This document shows positions 1,303 to 9,123 of a DNA stretch of 64,000 nucleotides, in pieces (position 1 is the stretch's first letter; each line of letters opens with the position of its first letter). Made by a program: the position numbers and the translations under genes. The DNA comes from Halomonas sp. M20 (GTDB taxonomy: Bacteria > Pseudomonadota > Gammaproteobacteria > Pseudomonadales > Halomonadaceae). Location of the stretch: positions 1,054,001 through 1,118,000 of the forward strand of contig NZ_JACNMQ010000001.1 of assembly GCF_020622265.1 (NCBI RefSeq), in the 5' to 3' direction. Below the pieces are notes generated by a model, which was not told where the DNA came from, did not search any database, and saw nothing but the letters and a program-made list of their open reading frames with translations.

Positions 1303-2262
1303 TTAGCCCAGCGGACTGCGAACCCCGGCGAAGCCTTGCCCTAGGACGTGGGTATAGATTTGGGTGGTTCGCAGGTCTGCGTGACCGAGCAGCTCCTGGA
1401 CCGTACGGATATCGTTACCGCGTTTTAGCAGTTCCGTGGCGAAAGAGTGCCGGAAGGTGTGACAGCCTGCGGGCTTACTGATACCGGCTGCTTTTACGGC
1501 ATTGCGCACAGCTCGCTGCACCGACGTAATATGGCGGTGATGGCGGGCGACATTACCGAGATTATCGGTACTCAACGAAGGTGAGGAGAAGAGCCATTGC
1601 CATTCCAGGGAGTGGCCAGCGTTGGGGTATTTTCGAGATAGCGCATAGGGCAGACTGACAGGGTGTTGATACTCGGGATCTTTTTGTTTCCAAGTTTTAT
1701 AGATGCTATCGGTATGATCCTGTAATGCACTAATGAGTGCTCCCGGCATCAGCGTTGTACGGTCTTTGGCACCTTTGCCATCGCGAACGGTCACAATTTG
1801 CTGGCTAAAATCCAAATCTTTAATGCGAAGCCTGCACGCCTCTGTAACCCGTAGCCCAGAACCGTACATTAGTGAAGCGATCAAGTGATCGGGGTGGCGT
1901 AGCTCACCGATGATGCGCATAGCTTCTTCGTGAGTGAGCACCACCGGCAGTCTTCGTGGCTTTTTTGAGCAGATAACCTCGCCGATCTCCCCGAGAGGTT
2001 TGTCGAGTACCTTGCTGTACAAAAACACTAGCGCATTCAGGGCCTGGGCCTGAGTAGCCGCCGCGACATTCCGGTGAACAGCCAGCCACGTCAGAAACTC
2101 GTTAACCTCTCGTGGCCCCATATCGCGTGGGTGTTTCATCTGCTGAAAGCGAATAAAATAGCGAATCCAGTACCAGTAGGTTTTTTCTGTGCGGATGCTG
2201 TAATGATTGACGCGAATGACAGCATGAACCTGATCGCGTAACCGAAGCGGTTTCCCATGCAT
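1303..2262 (-). CDS. intI: Integron integrase, IntI-type tyrosine recombinase
   Basis: This site-specific recombinase inserts circular cassettes at attI and excises them through folded single-stranded attC sites. The protein has 319 residues, the normal size. All catalytic residues are visible: Arg138 in GSGLRVTEA, Lys166 in GKGAKDR, His268 and Arg271 in CHTFRHSFA, His294 in LLGHADL and the Tyr303 nucleophile in TTQIYTH. The IntI-specific insertion is present around residues 204-226 (LPYALSRKYP through LEWQWLFSS), which separates it from XerC/XerD and phage integrases. The N-terminal SAM-like domain is intact. The ATG is preceded by AGGAA and, further up, by a LexA box, so SOS induction is likely. 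It reads opposite to the cassettes, as is usual. The gene appears intact and probably functional. Confidence 0.95.
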   Translation of the reverse strand: MHGKPLRLRDQVHAVIRVNHYSIRTEKTYWYWIRYFIRFQQMKHPRDMGPREVNEFLTWLAVHRNVAAATQAQALNALVFLYSKVLDKPLGEIGEVICSKKPRRLPVVLTHEEAMRIIGELRHPDHLIASLMYGSGLRVTEACRLRIKDLDFSQQIVTVRDGKGAKDRTTLMPGALISALQDHTDSIYKTWKQKDPEYQHPVSLPYALSRKYPNAGHSLEWQWLFSSPSLSTDNLGNVARHHRHITSVQRAVRNAVKAAGISKPAGCHTFRHSFATELLKRGNDIRTVQELLGHADLRTTQIYTHVLGQGFAGVRSPLG

Positions 2263-2279
2263 GGCTAGATTCCTATGAA

Positions 2280-2299
2280 TACTATATTTTTATACAGTA
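2280..2299 (-). promoter_or_regulatory. LexA (SOS) box upstream of intI
   Basis: Read toward intI the site is TACTGTATAAAAATATAGTA. The gammaproteobacterial LexA consensus is TACTGTATATATATACAGTA, so both TACTGTATA and TAGTA ends match, with one change in the second CTG half. It starts 17 bp upstream of the intI ATG, overlapping the expected promoter. LexA control of integron integrases is established for class 1 and Vibrio integrons. Confidence 0.85.
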
Positions 2300-2404
2300 T
2301 TATTATGTAAGCAAATCACAGAAGTCAAATGATTACGTGGCAGCCAGCAGGATGGTCGGCTAAGCTGTTGTTTTATAGATTTTTAGGTAGGCGTTCTTGG
2401 GAAT

Positions 2405-2473
2405 TAAAAACCGTAATCATGAAGCGGTCAGATTTCCGCAATATCGAAGCGCTCTATCTAATTGCTGTTATAC
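2405..2473 (+). other. attI: attI recombination site (left edge approximate)
   Basis: The junction with the first cassette is GTTATAC at 2467-2473, with the crossover between G2467 and T2468. It is fixed by exact complementarity to the R'' core GTATAAC of the attC at the end of cassette 1. The left limit is set only by the usual attI length of about 60-65 bp and was not recognised from direct repeats. The 205-bp intI-cassette interval should also hold the cassette promoter, but no convincing -35/-10 pair was picked. Confidence 0.6.
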
Positions 2474-2506
2474 GCAAAATCCAGTACATCAATAATTGGG
2501 AACGAG

Positions 2507-3892
2507 ATGTTAGAAAAGGAAAAGATTGTTCTTTTTTTAGGGAATGCAGATAGCGAGGGGGTTACTGCCAAGCTAAAAGCGGTGGGGACACTTTACAAAA
2601 GAAAGATGCTTGAATCGAGCCCTGAAAATTGGCAAAAAATTATAGGTATTTTTAATGAGTACGAGGTCACCTCAGTAGTCGTTAAATTAACCAATTCGTC
2701 CTTTGATATTCTATGCGAAGAGGAATATAAGGGTTTGAGAGAGGATCTATTAGGTCTTATATCGACAAAGCCCAATTTATTTTTGTCTCATGAATCGCTC
2801 CTTACTGGAGAAAAAGGTAATGATTATGGGGAGTGTATTGCAAAATCAAATGACTATGACCCAGAGCTTGAAGAAGACTATCAGTTTTTGAGGTTTCATT
2901 ATGGCGATGTGTTTCAACCTCCAAACTCGGAAATTGTTGGTGAGGTGCTTTCGCTTTTTGAACGCCATGAAATATCAATAATTCCTTATAAAAAGAATGT
3001 TGAGATGACCCTGATAGTATCTTCATTCATAGACAAAAATGAAAGCAACTTAATTTTTAGGATCTATGTTCCCTCAGAAAGAATGTGGGCAAATGAGGCT
3101 GAAAAGTTATTGCAGTTATTTAGAGAGTATCTACACAAAGTATCTGGATTAAATGTTAGGCAAGATCAATATAGAACCAATCAGGGGGTTGTGTACGAAT
3201 TCTTTGGCGGTGATGGTGTAGAACCAAATTCACTCCCGCAAAAATTCGATGAATTTTCCAGCTTCATGGAGTCATGTGTTTCTAATCCAGAAACTGCGCA
3301 GGCACTATTAGAATCGAAAGACCTAAATAAGAGTGAGATATTTAACCTTGTCGAACGGTATAGCAAAGAAGCCAGAAGATTACACATAGACATTAAACAA
3401 GAAAGGGAAAGAAAAATTCTTGCTATTAGGCATGGTTTAGAAAGCGAACTTTCAGAGCATGTGAGAACTGATCATGACTGGGAAGTTATTGGAAGAGTAG
3501 TTGAAGCGAGCGTACCTTCTGCAAATGGTATTTCTTCCGCGCTAACAATTGATAGGAAAATTCAACCAGCGCTAAACAATAGCTTAACGGTTAACATAAA
3601 CCCGCAAGTAATTGAGTCTGTAAATGGCTTAGTTGCGCAACAAATAATAGGTGATCAGCACCTAGGAACTGATGCAAAGAAATTACTGGAACTTATTGAC
3701 CAATATGCTGGAAAAGATAAGGCTATTCTTGCCTCGTCAGTACATGAGCTTTCTGATGAAAGCGCCAAAACTGAAGACCGAATAACAGCAAAGCACAGGC
3801 TGAAAGGATTTCTTGTGTCGGCTGGTAGTAAAATTGGTGATGTGACAACAGGTGTTCTTCAGTCATATATTGAAAATCAAATTGGCCTGTGA
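2507..3892 (+). CDS. Cassette 1: unknown 461-residue protein
   Basis: I do not recognise the family. The frame is intact and fills its cassette. ATG2507 was chosen because the longer in-frame TTG at 2462 lies before the cassette junction. Visible parts: an N-terminal alpha/beta-looking region (residues 1-110; KIVLFLGNA and VTSVVVKL strands), an acidic linker, a second mixed region (about 135-245), a charged helical stretch around 280-330 (YSKEARRLHIDIKQERERK), and a C-terminal helical module (about 375-461) ending in KGFLVSAGSKIGDVTTGVL. No signal peptide or clear membrane segment was seen. Base composition is clearly AT-richer than the chromosomal genes around it, which suggests transfer. 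Large, soluble, multidomain cassette proteins of this sort are often candidate defence genes, but that is inference only. Confidence 0.75.
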   Translation: MLEKEKIVLFLGNADSEGVTAKLKAVGTLYKRKMLESSPENWQKIIGIFNEYEVTSVVVKLTNSSFDILCEEEYKGLREDLLGLISTKPNLFLSHESLLTGEKGNDYGECIAKSNDYDPELEEDYQFLRFHYGDVFQPPNSEIVGEVLSLFERHEISIIPYKKNVEMTLIVSSFIDKNESNLIFRIYVPSERMWANEAEKLLQLFREYLHKVSGLNVRQDQYRTNQGVVYEFFGGDGVEPNSLPQKFDEFSSFMESCVSNPETAQALLESKDLNKSEIFNLVERYSKEARRLHIDIKQERERKILAIRHGLESELSEHVRTDHDWEVIGRVVEASVPSANGISSALTIDRKIQPALNNSLTVNINPQVIESVNGLVAQQIIGDQHLGTDAKKLLELIDQYAGKDKAILASSVHELSDESAKTEDRITAKHRLKGFLVSAGSKIGDVTTGVLQSYIENQIGL

Positions 3893-3897
3893 AGAGC

Positions 3898-3969
3898 GTA
3901 TAACAAGGTGCTGCTACGGAAAATTTGCTCGCTGTTGCTCCCAAATTTCCGCAGAGCACAGCGTTAACC
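3898..3969 (+). other. attC: attC site of cassette 1 (72 bp)
   Basis: R'' is GTATAAC and R' is GTTAACC. Inner arms CGGAAAATTTG and CAAATTTCCG pair with one unpaired A, the extrahelical base typical of attC, and GTGCTGC pairs imperfectly with GCAGAGCAC. The crossover point is between G3963 and T3964. Confidence 0.9.
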
Positions 3970-3984
3970 AGATTGGAGGAGTTC

Positions 3985-4575
3985 ATGCCCAGGAAGAAGA
4001 GTCTCAAAAAGTCAGCTACTGAATTTCGGGAAAAAGTTGTCGAACTTGAGACGTTCACCGACTCTTCCGTATTAGGCCTCTCTGATAAAGAGCAGAGTTG
4101 GTGCTATGACTACGCGATAATCAGGCTCTATCGAGAGTTTGAGCAGCTAATGCTGTTTGCTCTCGTTTGCGCAATTAATAACGACACCAAGACAATTTCT
4201 GACTCTACTGGCGTAGATTTTCCGAAACATCTAACAGACGAAGTTTGCGAATATCTGGTACTCGGAGGCGGGTATTTTGACTTCAAAGGGCGAGATGGGT
4301 TGATCAAAGAGCTAAAAAAATATGTCCCAAGCAATCACTATTTGGTCACCATAATCAAAAAACAAAAGTACAGGGACGCGCTTGAAAAGTTAACGGCGCT
4401 CCGCAACTTTGCTGCGCATGAAAGCATTCAGTCGAAGCGTTCAGCTTTGAATGCAATAAATCAGAAACGTGTCGGCTCATCTGGATCTTGGCTGAAGGTA
4501 CAAGGTCGTTTTACTGAGATTTCAGACAAACTAAAAGACTTGGGCCAAGAAGTTCATGACGCAGCGCCGTACTGA
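3985..4575 (+). CDS. Cassette 2: HEPN-like protein
   Basis: A 196-residue, mostly helical soluble protein starting at ATG3985 behind an excellent GGAGGAG. The motif LRNFAAHES places Arg140 and His145 in an R-x4-H arrangement near the end of a helix. That is the active-site signature of HEPN domains, found in many prokaryotic RNases of toxin-antitoxin, abortive-infection and CRISPR systems. Some HEPN proteins are inactive or act as RNA-binding partners, so nuclease activity is not shown. No nucleotidyltransferase (MNT) antitoxin gene is beside it; the next two cassettes also carry HEPN-like genes. The Lys/Arg-rich N-terminus (PRKKSLKKS) could contact nucleic acid. Function unproven. Confidence 0.65.
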   Translation: MPRKKSLKKSATEFREKVVELETFTDSSVLGLSDKEQSWCYDYAIIRLYREFEQLMLFALVCAINNDTKTISDSTGVDFPKHLTDEVCEYLVLGGGYFDFKGRDGLIKELKKYVPSNHYLVTIIKKQKYRDALEKLTALRNFAAHESIQSKRSALNAINQKRVGSSGSWLKVQGRFTEISDKLKDLGQEVHDAAPY

Positions 4576-4579
4576 ATCC

Positions 4580-4657
4580 GGTTAACAAGTCGCTGTTGTC
4601 GGACAATTTTTCCGCCGCTTTGCGGCTCCAAAATTGCCGCAAAGCTCAGCGTTAAAT
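4580..4657 (+). other. attC: attC site of cassette 2 (78 bp)
   Basis: R'' GGTTAAC is complementary to the cassette 2 start GTTAACC, and R' is GTTAAAT. The inner part contains CCGCCGCTTTGCGGC, and arms around GGACAATTTT and AAAATTGCC pair. The crossover is between G4651 and T4652. Confidence 0.9.
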
Positions 4658-4675
4658 GGTTCCAGAGAAAGCCTG

Positions 4676-5152
4676 ATGCAACCAGATATTCATAAGATCC
4701 AAAAACGAGCCGAGCTGATTGGACATATTTGCTTTCAGTACTCATTCCTTGATTATCTTGTGTCGAACGTCATATGGCACATTTTAAAACTGGATGTCGA
4801 AGCTGGGAAGATTGTCACCGGAAGCTTGGATATTCGTCCGAAACTGGACATGGCAGTTACTTTGGCAAGCCATTACGGTGTTCTTGACGAGATTTCTGCT
4901 CACATCAAAACGATGAAGAATCGAATCGAAGGCAAGAACGGTGCTATCAATAAACGAAACCGATTGATCCACGGAGTTTTCGCATCTGCTCCTGGAGATC
5001 CAGTTGTGGTTGTTGAATCTCACCGCAACAAACGCCACCGGCAACGAATAGCACTCGCCATTGATGAGATTCAAAGCACCCTAAATGAAATCACGCAAGA
5101 AGCTACGGATCTTTCCGAACTAATGGAAAAGCACGGGATCAACGTTCATTGA
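4676..5152 (+). CDS. Cassette 3: HEPN-like protein
   Basis: A 158-residue protein starting at ATG4676 (weak AGAGAAA upstream). Helix-rich, with aromatic N-terminal helices (FQYSFLDYLVSNVIWHIL) and the motif NKRNRLIHGVF, giving Arg94-x4-His99, the HEPN-type R-x4-H signature. The combination of an N-terminal helix pair, a KNRI segment and RNRLIHG followed by a beta hairpin (PVVVVESHR) is common in uncharacterised integron and plasmid proteins. It is not obviously similar in sequence to the HEPN-like proteins of the flanking cassettes outside the motif. RNase or RNA-binding function is inferred from the motif alone. Confidence 0.6.
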   Translation: MQPDIHKIQKRAELIGHICFQYSFLDYLVSNVIWHILKLDVEAGKIVTGSLDIRPKLDMAVTLASHYGVLDEISAHIKTMKNRIEGKNGAINKRNRLIHGVFASAPGDPVVVVESHRNKRHRQRIALAIDEIQSTLNEITQEATDLSELMEKHGINVH

Positions 5153-5162
5153 CACCTGTACC

Positions 5163-5246
5163 ATTTAACCAGTCAATCAAGTTCGTTCCGGCCTGCGGCC
5201 TCCACCGGACGCCCTAGTCGGGCGCCGCTTATCATTGGCGTTAAAC
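5163..5246 (+). other. attC: attC site of cassette 3 (84 bp)
   Basis: R'' ATTTAAC complements the cassette 3 start GTTAAAT, and R' is GTTAAAC. The central region includes the hairpin GGCCTGCGGCC. It is the longest attC of the array. Crossover between G5240 and T5241. Confidence 0.88.
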
Positions 5247-5262
5247 ATAATGGAGAATTGAA

Positions 5263-5973
5263 TTGTATTTTGACTTGGGAAAGTACCATTCTGAACTTTT
5301 GTTCCTGTATTGTAGATACAAGGAGTTACGGGCCTTTTGTTTAGATACTGATGCATTATATGCACACGTAACAGAAAATAAGTATGTCGAAGGCTTTCAG
5401 AATGGTGAGTACTTCAAAAGTACTGATAAGCTTGAGCTAGAGAAATGGCTTACTCCAAAAACTGATACCATAATAACTGCGTTCGATACTTTCGAGCTTC
5501 AAATGCCGGTTATTTTTGCTAGTTACCTTGAAGATGCAATTGTTACATTCTTAACAGCTTACTTTGTAAAATATGAAAACTGTATGGGAGATTACGTTAA
5601 TCCACCGGATCAAGATAACATAAAAGGGTTTGTGAAAATCGGTGATATCTTAAAATATAATACTATTGAAGAGCTGAAAGAATCATTAGCTTCTAGAGCT
5701 GCACATAATGCCGCGTCGGGTAAATCAAAGAAAAAGGTTTTCGCGAGAATTGAAGCGCTCACCAAACATACGATTCAAACAAAAATTAAAGATAAAACTA
5801 TCGCTCTTTACGACAAGCGTAATGAGATTATTCATGAGAACAAAAAGTTTGATCTTGGCATGGACTACATTGAAGAGATATATGATGACTGTATAGCGTC
5901 CATTACAGAGCTTGGAAAAATCTGTGTTGAAAAGAAAGTCCCATTTAACGACCCAAGTGGGTTACTTCGTTGA
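5263..5973 (+). CDS. Cassette 4: HEPN-like protein, TTG start
   Basis: A 236-residue protein. The only suitable start is TTG5263 with GGAGA six bases upstream; the nearby ATG at 5250 runs into a stop after three codons. Helix-rich and soluble, with a lysine-rich middle. The motif DKRNEIIHENKKFD gives Arg186-x4-His191, again the HEPN R-x4-H signature, and resembles the RN-x3-H-E form of MAE_28990/MAE_18760-like HEPN proteins. The gene is conspicuously AT-rich. It is the third HEPN-like cassette in a row. Catalytic activity and targets are unknown. Confidence 0.62.
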   Translation: MYFDLGKYHSELLFLYCRYKELRAFCLDTDALYAHVTENKYVEGFQNGEYFKSTDKLELEKWLTPKTDTIITAFDTFELQMPVIFASYLEDAIVTFLTAYFVKYENCMGDYVNPPDQDNIKGFVKIGDILKYNTIEELKESLASRAAHNAASGKSKKKVFARIEALTKHTIQTKIKDKTIALYDKRNEIIHENKKFDLGMDYIEEIYDDCIASITELGKICVEKKVPFNDPSGLLR

Positions 5974-5977
5974 TCTC

Positions 5978-6055
5978 GTTTAACCAGGCCAGCCAGCATC
6001 GCTCCCTGCGGTCGCTGGGCCTCGTTTCACTTGGCCGCTGCTGGCGGCGTTAGCT
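5978..6055 (+). other. attC: attC site of cassette 4 (78 bp)
   Basis: R'' GTTTAAC complements the cassette start GTTAAAC, and R' is GTTAGCT. Outer arms CCAGCCAGCA and TGCTGGCGG pair imperfectly. Crossover between G6049 and T6050. Confidence 0.9.
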
Positions 6056-6118
6056 GTGATTGCACCATCTACAAAGTGACACTATAGTATCACTATAAGT
6101 CTGATTCACGGTGAACCC

Positions 6119-6376
6119 ATGAAAGTTGAGCTTGTTACGAACCTCAAACGCCAAGCCACAAAGATTCTGGCAGACCTGCACTTGTCTAAAGAGCCGATAC
6201 TGATCACGGAGCATGGTCAGCCATCCGCATACCTTGTCGATGTGGAGGATTACGAGTTCATGCAGCGTCGACTTAAGCTGCTTGAGGGGCTCTCACGGGG
6301 AGAGCGTGCTGTACTTGAGGGAAGAACGTACAGCCAAAGTGGGGCCAGGGAAAAAATGAGTAAATGGCTGAAGTAA
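6119..6376 (+). CDS. Cassette 5: Phd/YefM-type antitoxin
   Basis: An 85-residue protein with an N-terminal Phd/YefM fold: KVELVTNLKRQATKIL then EPILITEHGQPSAYLVDVEDYE, the canonical repressor-antitoxin DNA-binding region. The C-terminal part (GERAVLEGRTYSQ then MSKWLK) is the likely toxin-neutralising tail. It overlaps the toxin gene by 13 bases, so the two are translationally coupled. Known members bind their own promoter with the toxin. The cassette carries its own upstream region of about 65 bp with the stretch CACTATAGTATCACTATA, a good place for an autoregulated promoter and operator, so this cassette may not rely on the integron promoter. TA cassettes are thought to stabilise arrays. 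Confidence 0.88.
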   Translation: MKVELVTNLKRQATKILADLHLSKEPILITEHGQPSAYLVDVEDYEFMQRRLKLLEGLSRGERAVLEGRTYSQSGAREKMSKWLK

Positions 6377-6666
6377 TATGGACGGAGCCCGCCCTTCAAG
6401 AACTGGACGCCATCGCTGAATACATTGCTCTGGATAATCCTGTTGCCGCAAGTCATTTGGTCCAAGAAGTTTTCGATAAGACCGAGCGTTTGGAAGATTT
6501 TCCCCAATCCGGACGGATTCCTCCAGAGCTCCCTAATTCGGTATACAGGGAAGTAGTGGTTCCACCGTGTCGCATTTTTTATCGTGAGGATGAGGGGCGA
6601 GTTCTCGTTCTTTATGTCATGCGTGAGGAGCAGCAGCTTCGTGCCTACATGCTCGAAAACAGCTAA
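6364..6666 (+). CDS. Cassette 5: ParE/RelE-superfamily toxin
   Basis: A 100-residue protein with the ParE/RelE fold sequence: VIWTEPALQELDAIAEYIA, then ASHLVQEVFDKTERLEDFPQSGR, YREVVVPPCRIFYRED and RVLVLYVMREEQQLR. The ALQELDAIAEYIA and FPQSGR motifs favour the ParE branch (gyrase poison) over mRNA-cleaving RelE, though the assignment within the superfamily is uncertain. It is encoded directly after, and overlapping, its antitoxin. Its stop codon lies inside the R'' core of the attC (AGCTAAC), a very compact cassette end. The gene looks intact. Confidence 0.88.
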   Translation: MAEVIWTEPALQELDAIAEYIALDNPVAASHLVQEVFDKTERLEDFPQSGRIPPELPNSVYREVVVPPCRIFYREDEGRVLVLYVMREEQQLRAYMLENS

Positions 6667-6734
6667 CCAGGCGCGTTGCACGGATGCCTTTGCCTTCGCT
6701 ACGTCAAAATTAATGGTGCGCTTCAGCGTTGAGC
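6661..6734 (+). other. attC: attC site of cassette 5 (74 bp)
   Basis: R'' AGCTAAC complements the cassette start GTTAGCT and contains the toxin stop codon; R' is GTTGAGC. This is the last attC with well-formed core sites. The expected R'' partner of the next cassette (GCTCAAC) was not found downstream. Confidence 0.85.
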
Positions 6735-8052: not shown

Positions 8053-8468
8053 AAGCTCGAATCACAGTCATTACCCTCGGCGTGGACGACCTAGAAAGGT
8101 CGCTACAGTTCTATCGCGACTTGGAGTTGGAGACTGAAGGCATTATTGGAAAAGAGTTCGAGTATGGAGCTGTAGCATTTTTCAAACTCCAGGCTGGGCT
8201 GAATCTCGCAATTTGGCCTCGCAAAAGCATCGCTCATGATTCTGGTCTAAGTGCAGGGCCACCCGCACCTACCGAGCTAAGCATCGGGCACAATGTCTTG
8301 TCCAAAGCAGAAGTGGATGAGGTTATGGAGCAAGCCAAAAGCGCCGGAGCTGTAATCGTAAAGGCGGCGCACGACACTTTCTGGGGCGGGTACGCCGGCT
8401 ATTTTCAAGACCCCGATCAGCACCTGTCGGAGGTCGTATGGAACCCAGCGTTGTTGGCCGAGGTTTGA
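8049..8468 (+). CDS. VOC-superfamily (glyoxalase/bleomycin-resistance fold) protein
   Basis: A 139-residue protein with two beta-alpha-beta-beta-beta modules: ITVITLGVDDLERSLQFYRDL at the N-terminus and GYFQDPDQHLSEVVWNP at the C-terminus. The latter has the D-P-D-x-H-x-x-E metal-ligand-like end typical of glyoxalase/dioxygenase-fold proteins. Members are lyases, dioxygenases or drug-sequestering proteins and are common integron cargo; the ligand cannot be told from sequence. It is coupled to the monooxygenase by an ATGA overlap, suggesting a two-step or oxidise-and-capture unit. The frame continues without another stop for 45 codons past its TGA (see next entry). Confidence 0.85.
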   Translation: MKARITVITLGVDDLERSLQFYRDLELETEGIIGKEFEYGAVAFFKLQAGLNLAIWPRKSIAHDSGLSAGPPAPTELSIGHNVLSKAEVDEVMEQAKSAGAVIVKAAHDTFWGGYAGYFQDPDQHLSEVVWNPALLAEV

Positions 8469-8606
8469 GGCATAACTCAGGCGTTAGGCGTCACGGCGAA
8501 CACCTACGTGGAGCAGGGTTTATCTCACGTCGGTGATGATCGCTTTCTGGCATTTCGGCTGGTGGAGGAGATGCTGTCCTTGGTCATCGAGACTGCCGAC
8601 GCCTGA
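8469..8606 (+). pseudogene. Remnant coding frame and collapsed attC-like core
   Basis: Directly after the VOC stop, in the same frame, there is open sequence to TGA8606. It reads like the C-terminal end of a real protein (TYVEQGLSHVGDDRFLAF then RLVEEMLSLVIETADA), but it has no start and its family is unrecognised. At 8470-8489 a 20-bp element reads GCATAACTCAGGCGTTAGGC. It has an R''-like GCATAAC and an R'-like GTTAGGC, almost complementary but separated by only six bases, as if an attC had lost its centre. Both suggest cassette decay. Confidence 0.4.
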
Positions 8607-8634: not shown

Positions 8635-9123
8635 ATGAATATTAGAGAAGCACATAGAGAAGACTGGGAATCTATCTGGCCAATCTTCCATGAAATAGTC
8701 AAAGCTGGCGAAACCTATGCTTATGATCCTGCCACAACGATCGATCAGGCAGAGAAAATCTGGCTAGATGCTCCGCGTAAAACGTTTGTATTCGAAGAGA
8801 ATGGGGAGGTTCTTGGCACATATTACGTGAAAACAAATCAAGCCGGGCCGGGCAGTCATGTCTGCAACTGTGGGTATATGGTCGCTTCGAAAGCAAGAGG
8901 GCGGGGTCTTGCAACTACCATGTGCGAGCATTCGCAAAAAGTTGCATCAGAGCTTGGTTACAAGGCTATGCAATTCAATTTTGTAGCCTCAAGTAATGAA
9001 GGAGGCGTTCGTTTGTGGAGTAAGCTCGGATTCGAAATCGTTGGCAGGCTCCCAACGGCTTTTAATCATCCAGTCAAAGGGCTTGTAGATGCACTGGTCA
9101 TGTATAAGTGGCTGCAAACATAA
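8635..9123 (+). CDS. GNAT-family N-acetyltransferase
   Basis: A 162-residue acetyl-CoA-dependent transferase. N-terminus MNIREAHREDWESIWPIF is the usual GNAT start. The acetyl-CoA pyrophosphate-binding loop appears as SKARGRGLATTMCEHS (residues ~83-98), matching the Q/R-x-x-G-x-G/A pattern. The later NEGGVRLWSKLGFEIVGRLP is the conserved C-terminal strand-helix. Close relatives are frequent integron cassettes; targets (small molecule or protein) are unknown. A GTCATGT at 8609-8615 before the gene and ACATAAC just after it are one base short of complementary cassette cores, so this could be a decayed cassette. A full attC stem could not be drawn. Confidence 0.85.
   Translation: MNIREAHREDWESIWPIFHEIVKAGETYAYDPATTIDQAEKIWLDAPRKTFVFEENGEVLGTYYVKTNQAGPGSHVCNCGYMVASKARGRGLATTMCEHSQKVASELGYKAMQFNFVASSNEGGVRLWSKLGFEIVGRLPTAFNHPVKGLVDALVMYKWLQT

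Follow-up and report, generated by a model that had tools for sequence, protein, structure and literature searches.

Do three consecutive integron cassettes that each encode a HEPN-like protein form one system, or have small genes of one kind been collected separately? The question is raised by a locus in Halomonas sp. M20, within a stretch of 64,000 nucleotides (contig NZ_JACNMQ010000001.1, positions 1,054,001 to 1,118,000 of the forward strand) that we call the window and whose numbering is used throughout. The window is part of a 3.89-Mb genome in 15 contigs. A first-pass annotation of this DNA had noticed R-x4-H motifs in the proteins of cassettes 2, 3 and 4 (here C2, C3 and C4) and took these proteins to be three different HEPN-like proteins, either parallel RNase (ribonuclease) defense modules or cooperating parts of an undescribed system. 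The reading that we favor, with a probability of roughly 60%, is that C2, C3 and C4 are separately acquired single-gene cassettes for solo HEPN RNases that act as anti-phage or dormancy effectors.

Three genes in separate cassettes of a chromosomal integron

The array is organized as a chromosomal integron, with a minus-strand integrase gene, intI, followed by a run of five cassettes on the plus strand. In 5 of 5 cassettes, the 7-mer at the 5' end is the reverse complement of R'' in the attC site of the same cassette. These 7-mers are GTTATAC at 2467, GTTAACC at 3963, GTTAAAT at 4651, GTTAAAC at 5240 and GTTAGCT at 6049, and the R'' elements of cassettes 1 to 5 start at 3898, 4580, 5163, 5978 and 6661. 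Such complementarity is expected if each cassette was once a circle. The adjoining integrase and the cores that match their own R'' identify the array as integron cassettes. By the same boundaries, the span from 3964 to 6049 that had been singled out is exactly cassettes 2 to 4, and C2, C3 and C4 do each have a separate attC site, as had been claimed.

1303..2262, minus strand: intI, integron integrase of 319 amino acids (TIGR02249, 402.7 bits against a cut-off of 265)
2467..2473, plus strand: attI/cassette 1 junction, GTTATAC, reverse complement of the R'' in the attC of cassette 1
3898..3969, plus strand: attC of cassette 1, R'' at 3898, R' at 3963; bottom-strand fold against shuffles z -2.58
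3985..4575, plus strand: gene of cassette 2 (C2), 196 amino acids, HEPN-like; RNFAAH at residues 140-145
4580..4657, plus strand: attC of cassette 2, R'' at 4580, R' at 4651; fold z -4.46
4676..5152, plus strand: gene of cassette 3 (C3), 158 amino acids, HEPN-like; RNRLIH at residues 94-99
5163..5246, plus strand: attC of cassette 3, R'' at 5163, R' at 5240; fold z -1.35, equaled by 19/200 shuffles
5263..5973, plus strand: gene of cassette 4 (C4), 236 amino acids, TTG start, RiboL-PSP-HEPN-like; RNEIIH at residues 186-191
5978..6055, plus strand: attC of cassette 4, R'' at 5978, R' at 6049; fold z -2.19

The bottom strands of three of these four attC sites (cassettes 1, 2 and 4) are clearly better folded than shuffles; that of cassette 3 is less so. 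The guanine plus cytosine (GC) content of the cassette genes is 36-50%, compared with 58% for positions 9000 to 64000 of the window, in line with a foreign origin. C2, C3 and C4 have 44, 44 and 36% GC, and the differing value of C4, together with the separate attC sites, is as would be found for separate origins.

An RN-x3-H motif is conserved in each family

RNFAAH, RNRLIH and RNEIIH are present in the open reading frames (ORFs) of C2, C3 and C4, as first noticed. We rejected R-x4-H alone as evidence for HEPN: of 56 ORFs of the window that were picked mechanically, do not overlap and encode at least 100 amino acids, 31 contain it. The narrower form RN-x3-H is rarer: it occurs in 6 of the 56, and three of these six are C2, C3 and C4. 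If RN-x3-H occurred at the density seen in the remaining 53 ORFs, all three would have it with a probability of approximately 3e-5, an estimate made post hoc. The occurrence of RN-x3-H in C2 to C4 is more than chance.

Conservation of the motif is a stronger argument than its frequency. In the C2 family, R140, N141 and H145 are invariant in 8/8 rows of the alignment (7 distinct proteins, with relatives that are 44-59% identical), as is the pair F52-E53. In the C3 family, whose relatives are 60, 27 and 25% identical, R94, N95, H99 and G100 are invariant in 4/4 rows and are among just 15 invariant columns. R, N and H are all kept in C4 and in the only intact relative found, at 26% identity (2/2 rows), and RNKIVH is present in the C-terminal part of a broken one (locus L024). 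The HEPN signature (PMC3710099) is R-x4-6-H in which a polar residue (N, D or H) follows the R, and the families of C2, C3 and C4 all show it. HEPN domains also conserve an acidic residue upstream, in helix 2, often as Ex3[KR]; Ex3[KR] is absent at the upstream acidic pair in all three proteins.

The proteins are otherwise dissimilar, in agreement with the first-pass annotation. A phmmer search with each retrieves its own relatives only; at a laxer limit, C3 also matches L013, a class-wide candidate in genome G297 that we rejected as a relative because the protein is histidine-kinase-like by eye. Pairwise profile probabilities are 0.4% for C4-C2, 1.1% for C4-C3 and 0.4% for C2-C3, and with all values at or below 1.1% direct homology among the three was rejected. 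The C4-C3 score rests on the motif and exceeds all 60 shuffles, which the C4-C2 and C2-C3 scores do not.

Comparison with HEPN families

Judging from their sequences, we consider C4 to be well supported as a HEPN protein, C2 to be a likely one and C3 a plausible one. Two relatives of C4 pass the cut-off of 28.4 bits for Pfam family PF18735 (RiboL-PSP-HEPN), the intact protein L004 with 29.0 bits and a piece in L024 with 38.1 bits, and the motif of C4 is in register with the family profile. A piece of a C4 relative also has a weak AbiU2 match (E 0.016). In a search of 120 genomes, PF18735 was found at 18 places in 16 genomes, this genome not among them; 15 of the 17 ORFs listed are short (168-272 amino acids) and the others have 108 and 355.

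The RiboL-PSP-HEPN alignment used for profile comparison was built from 14 of the 18 places, leaving out L024 (a broken gene) and L027, L028 and L029 (below the cut-off). In the main comparison, with a four-row C3 alignment and with match columns defined by the first row, the hhalign match probability was 66.5% for C4 (27 columns), 23.3% for C2 (116 columns) and 20.8% for C3 (71 columns), and for none of the three did any of 60 column-shuffled targets reach the score. The acidic helix motif (FE/LD) and RN-x3-H are both in register with the profile in C2 and in C3. Block shuffles reached the score in 0/90 cases for C2, 2/90 for C3 and 2/90 for C4, and among 107 single-protein queries C4 ranked first and C2 third. 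The description of three HEPN-like proteins is well supported for C4, through the relatives that pass PF18735, and to a moderate degree for C2 and a lesser one for C3, through the conserved RN-x3-H and the profile register.

C2 and C3, which align with RiboL-PSP-HEPN only profile to profile, match nothing in Pfam, NCBIfam or PADLOC beyond chance level. Among the relatives of C2 and C3, sub-threshold matches to HEPN_Apea (E 0.012) and DUF4209 (E 0.018) are found in one relative each. HEPN_Apea was rejected as the C2 family on the grounds of that one relative at E 0.012; the family (PF18739) was found in 1/120 genomes. Also rejected were relatives of C2 to C4 in the PDB by sequence, where the matches are at chance level only, and a PHROGs assignment, for which the best E among C1 (the gene of cassette 1) to C4 is 0.046. 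C2 and C3 may each represent a HEPN family that has yet to be named.

Relatives of the three genes and their neighbors

Relatives of C2 were found in two Streptomyces plasmids and five viral contigs, with no match in phages, in 243 other genomes of the order (0/243) or in 328 others of the phylum (0/328). On one prophage contig (L008:1-3698), a C2-type gene with an endolysin gene beside it follows the gene for an HmaC (DUF499) ATPase (1543 bits). On another (L009:1-3364), a C2-type gene starts 11 nucleotides past the end of the gene for a BrxH/HmaA-like SNF2 helicase (10 nucleotides between them) and is near a tail gene. The C2-type protein is possibly a HEPN partner of Hma/DUF499 systems. Elsewhere, a C2-type gene starts 59 nucleotides past the end of a phage integrase gene (L010) or adjoins a gene that matches PADLOC PDC-M68A and SAVED/effector-endonuclease models (L006). 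L011 and L012 carry an identical C2-type protein.

The one viral relative of C3 (L007, 60% identity) is on a contig with PHROGs attachment and minor head proteins, and its gene precedes a DUF2971 gene that matches the PADLOC candidate PDC-S31 (L007:5001-6444); by our own reading, the genes of this contig look filamentous-phage-like. There are no C3 relatives in the 243 other genomes of the order and distant ones in 2/328 other genomes of the phylum. No match to C3 was found in plasmids or phages, and the C3 profile found no relative in genome contigs. At L036 (1198-2944), a C3-type gene adjoins an IS1595-type transposase gene, and at L035 a transposase remnant is perhaps near the C3-type gene (by eye, no family match). 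This suggests that the C3-type genes of L036 and L035 are transposon passengers. The C2 and C3 families are tied to prophage cargo sites, and that of C2 also to Hma/BREX-like neighborhoods, which makes both anti-phage candidates.

C4 has a relative in 1 of the 243 other genomes of the order (L004, genome G026), and this relative is an integron cassette too: it follows the same core/R'' rule and has its own integrase (400.4 bits), 51.8% identical to that of the window. GIY-YIG and C5-methylase genes lie downstream of it. Between the integrase of G026 and the C4-type cassette is an IS110-like transposase gene, identified by eye (L034:7103-8122). In genome G465, the C4-type gene (L024, 1456-3353) is split by a transposase gene, and no integrase match was found in the surrounding stretch of 19.5 kb. 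C4 has no relative in plasmids, viral contigs or genome contigs.

None of the 36 loci fetched (L004 to L039, approximately 2-20 kb each, some overlapping) has relatives of two cassettes. A cooperating three-part system, one of the two possibilities raised by the first-pass annotation, is unsupported.

Proposed function and alternative explanations

What we infer for these proteins comprises the HEPN fold of C2 and C3, RNase activity, dimerization, expression level, trigger and role in defense. HEPN RNases cut RNA by means of the R and H of the motif, independently of metal and typically as dimers (PMC3710099, PMC13092281), and the C2, C3 and C4 proteins are each little more than one HEPN-sized domain. 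We postulate that each would be a small stand-alone HEPN-type RNase, most likely homodimeric and metal-independent, with the R and H of RN-x3-H at the active site. C2, C3 and C4 start 22, 25 and 23 nucleotides after the start of the cassette core, and a leader of 22-25 nucleotides leaves little room for promoters of their own, which points to transcription from upstream. This would be read-through from Pc or transcription from promoters of neighboring cassettes, probably giving low expression. A promoter scan from 2240 to 6130 (6 sites, compared with 8.9 in shuffles) was uninformative. Upon infection or stress, the RNase might cut host or phage RNA and so stop the phage burst. The integron would then hold a small set of weakly expressed effectors that act against phages or in stress dormancy, next to C1 and a Phd/ParE pair in cassette 5. 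The idea of parallel RNase defense modules fits the contexts of several relatives, which have defense or prophage neighbors; the RNase role in it is a predicted one. If this explanation is correct, three distinct solo HEPN RNases are stored in one very small integron. They would be a compact natural set in which to study how minimal RNase effectors without a partner are kept silent before infection, and whether the phages covered differ from one HEPN cassette to another.

Several results weigh against this explanation. C4 itself is below the cut-off of PF18735 (17.5 bits, E 0.0039, compared with 28.4 bits) and was not listed in the genome-wide search for this family at E up to 0.001, and R[NDHQ]-x3-H is present in just 8/14 rows of the RiboL-PSP set itself. 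PADLOC-DB 2.0 gave no match for C1 to C4 at E up to 10, and three C2 relatives (L005, L011 and L012) are among phage genes with no defense gene noticed. In the first hhalign run, for which the C3 alignment had two rows and the column rule was different, the probabilities were 54.0% for C4, 3.9% for C2 and 1.1% for C3. C3 is outside the top 20 of the 107 single-sequence queries, and rank 2 is held by a protein that is zinc-peptidase-like by eye and has RHEIAH. When six motif columns were masked, block shuffles reached the score in 11/90 cases for C2, 33/90 for C3 and 9/90 for C4; the match of C2 and C3 to the RiboL-PSP-HEPN profile is carried mostly by the motif. The profile-profile search against HEPN that the first-pass annotation had suggested gave scores for all three proteins that no shuffled columns equaled, with this reservation about the motif in C2 and C3.

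The masked results for C2 and C3 would be expected if C4 alone were a HEPN protein and the RN-x3-H of C2, C3 or both belonged to another helical fold, and so would a motif-only false positive such as the zinc-peptidase-like protein and the want of any Pfam HEPN match for C2 and C3 beyond the weak HEPN_Apea and DUF4209 matches in one relative each. We take this alternative seriously and consider it unlikely: R, N and H are invariant down to 44% identity in the C2 family and 25% in that of C3, a second helix motif is in register independently in C2 and in C3, and with the motif masked, each of the three proteins still has a best alignment that finishes on one shared stretch of the template, reaching to column 63. 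Rather doubtful, too, is a function as stress or array-stabilizing toxins (dormancy RNases or toxin-antitoxin-like proteins) instead of anti-phage effectors. Integron HEPN proteins were proposed to be dormancy RNases by Anantharaman et al. (2013; PMC3710099), and cassette 5 is a Phd/ParE pair, but one ORF fills each of cassettes 2 to 4 with no recognizable antitoxin, and several relatives are in prophages adjoining defense genes.

That the three proteins are subunits of one tripartite HEPN complex seems very improbable. The genes lie side by side in one orientation, promoter-like sites are no more frequent than in shuffles, and HEPN domains are usually dimeric (PMC13092281), but the 36 loci without joint relatives, the separate attC sites and the differing GC content of C4 argue against a common unit. 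We give equally little credence to the proteins being substrate-binding helical halves of two-part nucleotidyltransferases. This was the proposal of the structure paper on Vpc_cass2 (3JRT; PMC3548836), a cassette protein that Anantharaman et al. classed as HEPN, but the Pfam scan of seven integron proteins contains no nucleotidyltransferase family, and C2 to C4 keep a catalytic-type RN-x3-H, which HEPN domains fused to nucleotidyltransferases tend to lose (PMC3710099). At the other end of ambition, C2 and C3 might found two undescribed mobile families of solo anti-phage HEPN RNases, common to prophages and integrons, that form with C4 a layered or mutually regulating set assembled by the integron, with different triggers or RNA targets and possibly mixed dimers; this we regard as a long shot. 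Separately acquired solo HEPN RNases remain the explanation that we prefer.

Relation to known systems

HEPN cassettes and integrons rich in defense genes have both been published. The three cassettes, which had been taken as a candidate undescribed system, are most likely an ordinary if well-filled store of mobile anti-phage genes. An "Integron cassette HEPN" family, represented by Vpc_cass2, was named in 2013, with induction of dormancy as the proposed role (PMC3710099), and the authors of the 3JRT structure suggested a nucleotidyltransferase partner (PMC3548836). C2, C3 and C4 resemble this family in being single-gene integron cassettes that keep the HEPN motif. They differ in that 3JRT is absent among PDB matches up to E 10 for C2, C3, C4 and profiles A1, A2 and A3. 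Phage defense has been described for at least 16 of 179 Vibrio cholerae cassettes and for 9 of 57 tested V. parahaemolyticus cassettes (review PMC12409362). Such defense cassettes of chromosomal and mobile integrons (Darracq et al., 2025; Kieffer et al., 2025, via PMC12409362) are small and likely anti-phage, as those of the window would be, whereas the window array has five cassettes and is no superintegron, and its role is predicted from sequence. Chance clustering had been called unexpected, and RN-x3-H is indeed found beyond chance, but the force of this is weakened by integron stores of defense genes and by the HEPN cassette family of 2013. Three solo HEPN cassettes in a row would be an enrichment, but of a kind to be expected where an integron gathers small defense genes. 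We found no report of adjacent HEPN cassettes in the literature, within a limited coverage of subscription papers.

In BREX and related DUF499 (Hma) systems, standalone HEPN proteins have been described as suicide effectors that serve as a backup (PMC12839542), and the C2 relatives L008 and L009 adjoin genes of such types. The likeness to HEPN effectors of Hma/DUF499 (Type-1 BR) systems lies in the C2 relative that follows the HmaC DUF499 ATPase; in the window array, in contrast, the Pfam scan shows no partner that is an ATPase, a methylase or a helicase. Among HEPN abortive-infection proteins, AbiF and AbiD are distantly linked to RiboL-PSP-HEPN (Table 1 of the 2013 survey), whereas AbiV is without the canonical histidine, and C2 to C4 have no significant sequence match to AbiV, AbiU2 or AbiD/F. 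Cassettes 2 to 4 also differ from MNT/HEPN type II toxin-antitoxin systems: each is filled by a single main ORF, and in none of them did the Pfam scan match an antitoxin or nucleotidyltransferase.

Other features of the array

Cassettes 1 and 5 flank the three HEPN-like genes.

2507..3892, plus strand: gene of cassette 1, 461 amino acids, no known family; no Pfam, NCBIfam or PADLOC match above chance
6119..6376, plus strand: Phd/YefM antitoxin of cassette 5 (PF02604, 54.2 bits against 29.8)
6364..6666, plus strand: ParE toxin of cassette 5 (PF05016, 71 bits against 23)

The sole relative found for the cassette 1 protein is 64% identical; its gene is on a P2-like prophage contig, in the vicinity of genes for portal, terminase and scaffold proteins. 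Plasmids gave no match. Cassette 1 is a candidate defense gene of unknown type. The best plasmid matches listed for intI have 49-51% identity, and several are annotated as intI1. In cassette 5, GTTGAGC appears to form the end of the attC (window 6661-6734). Further downstream, after genes that by eye are monooxygenase-like and VOC-like, is another attC-like stretch (8466-8490); no 5' core was found for it, and it is possibly a decayed sixth cassette.

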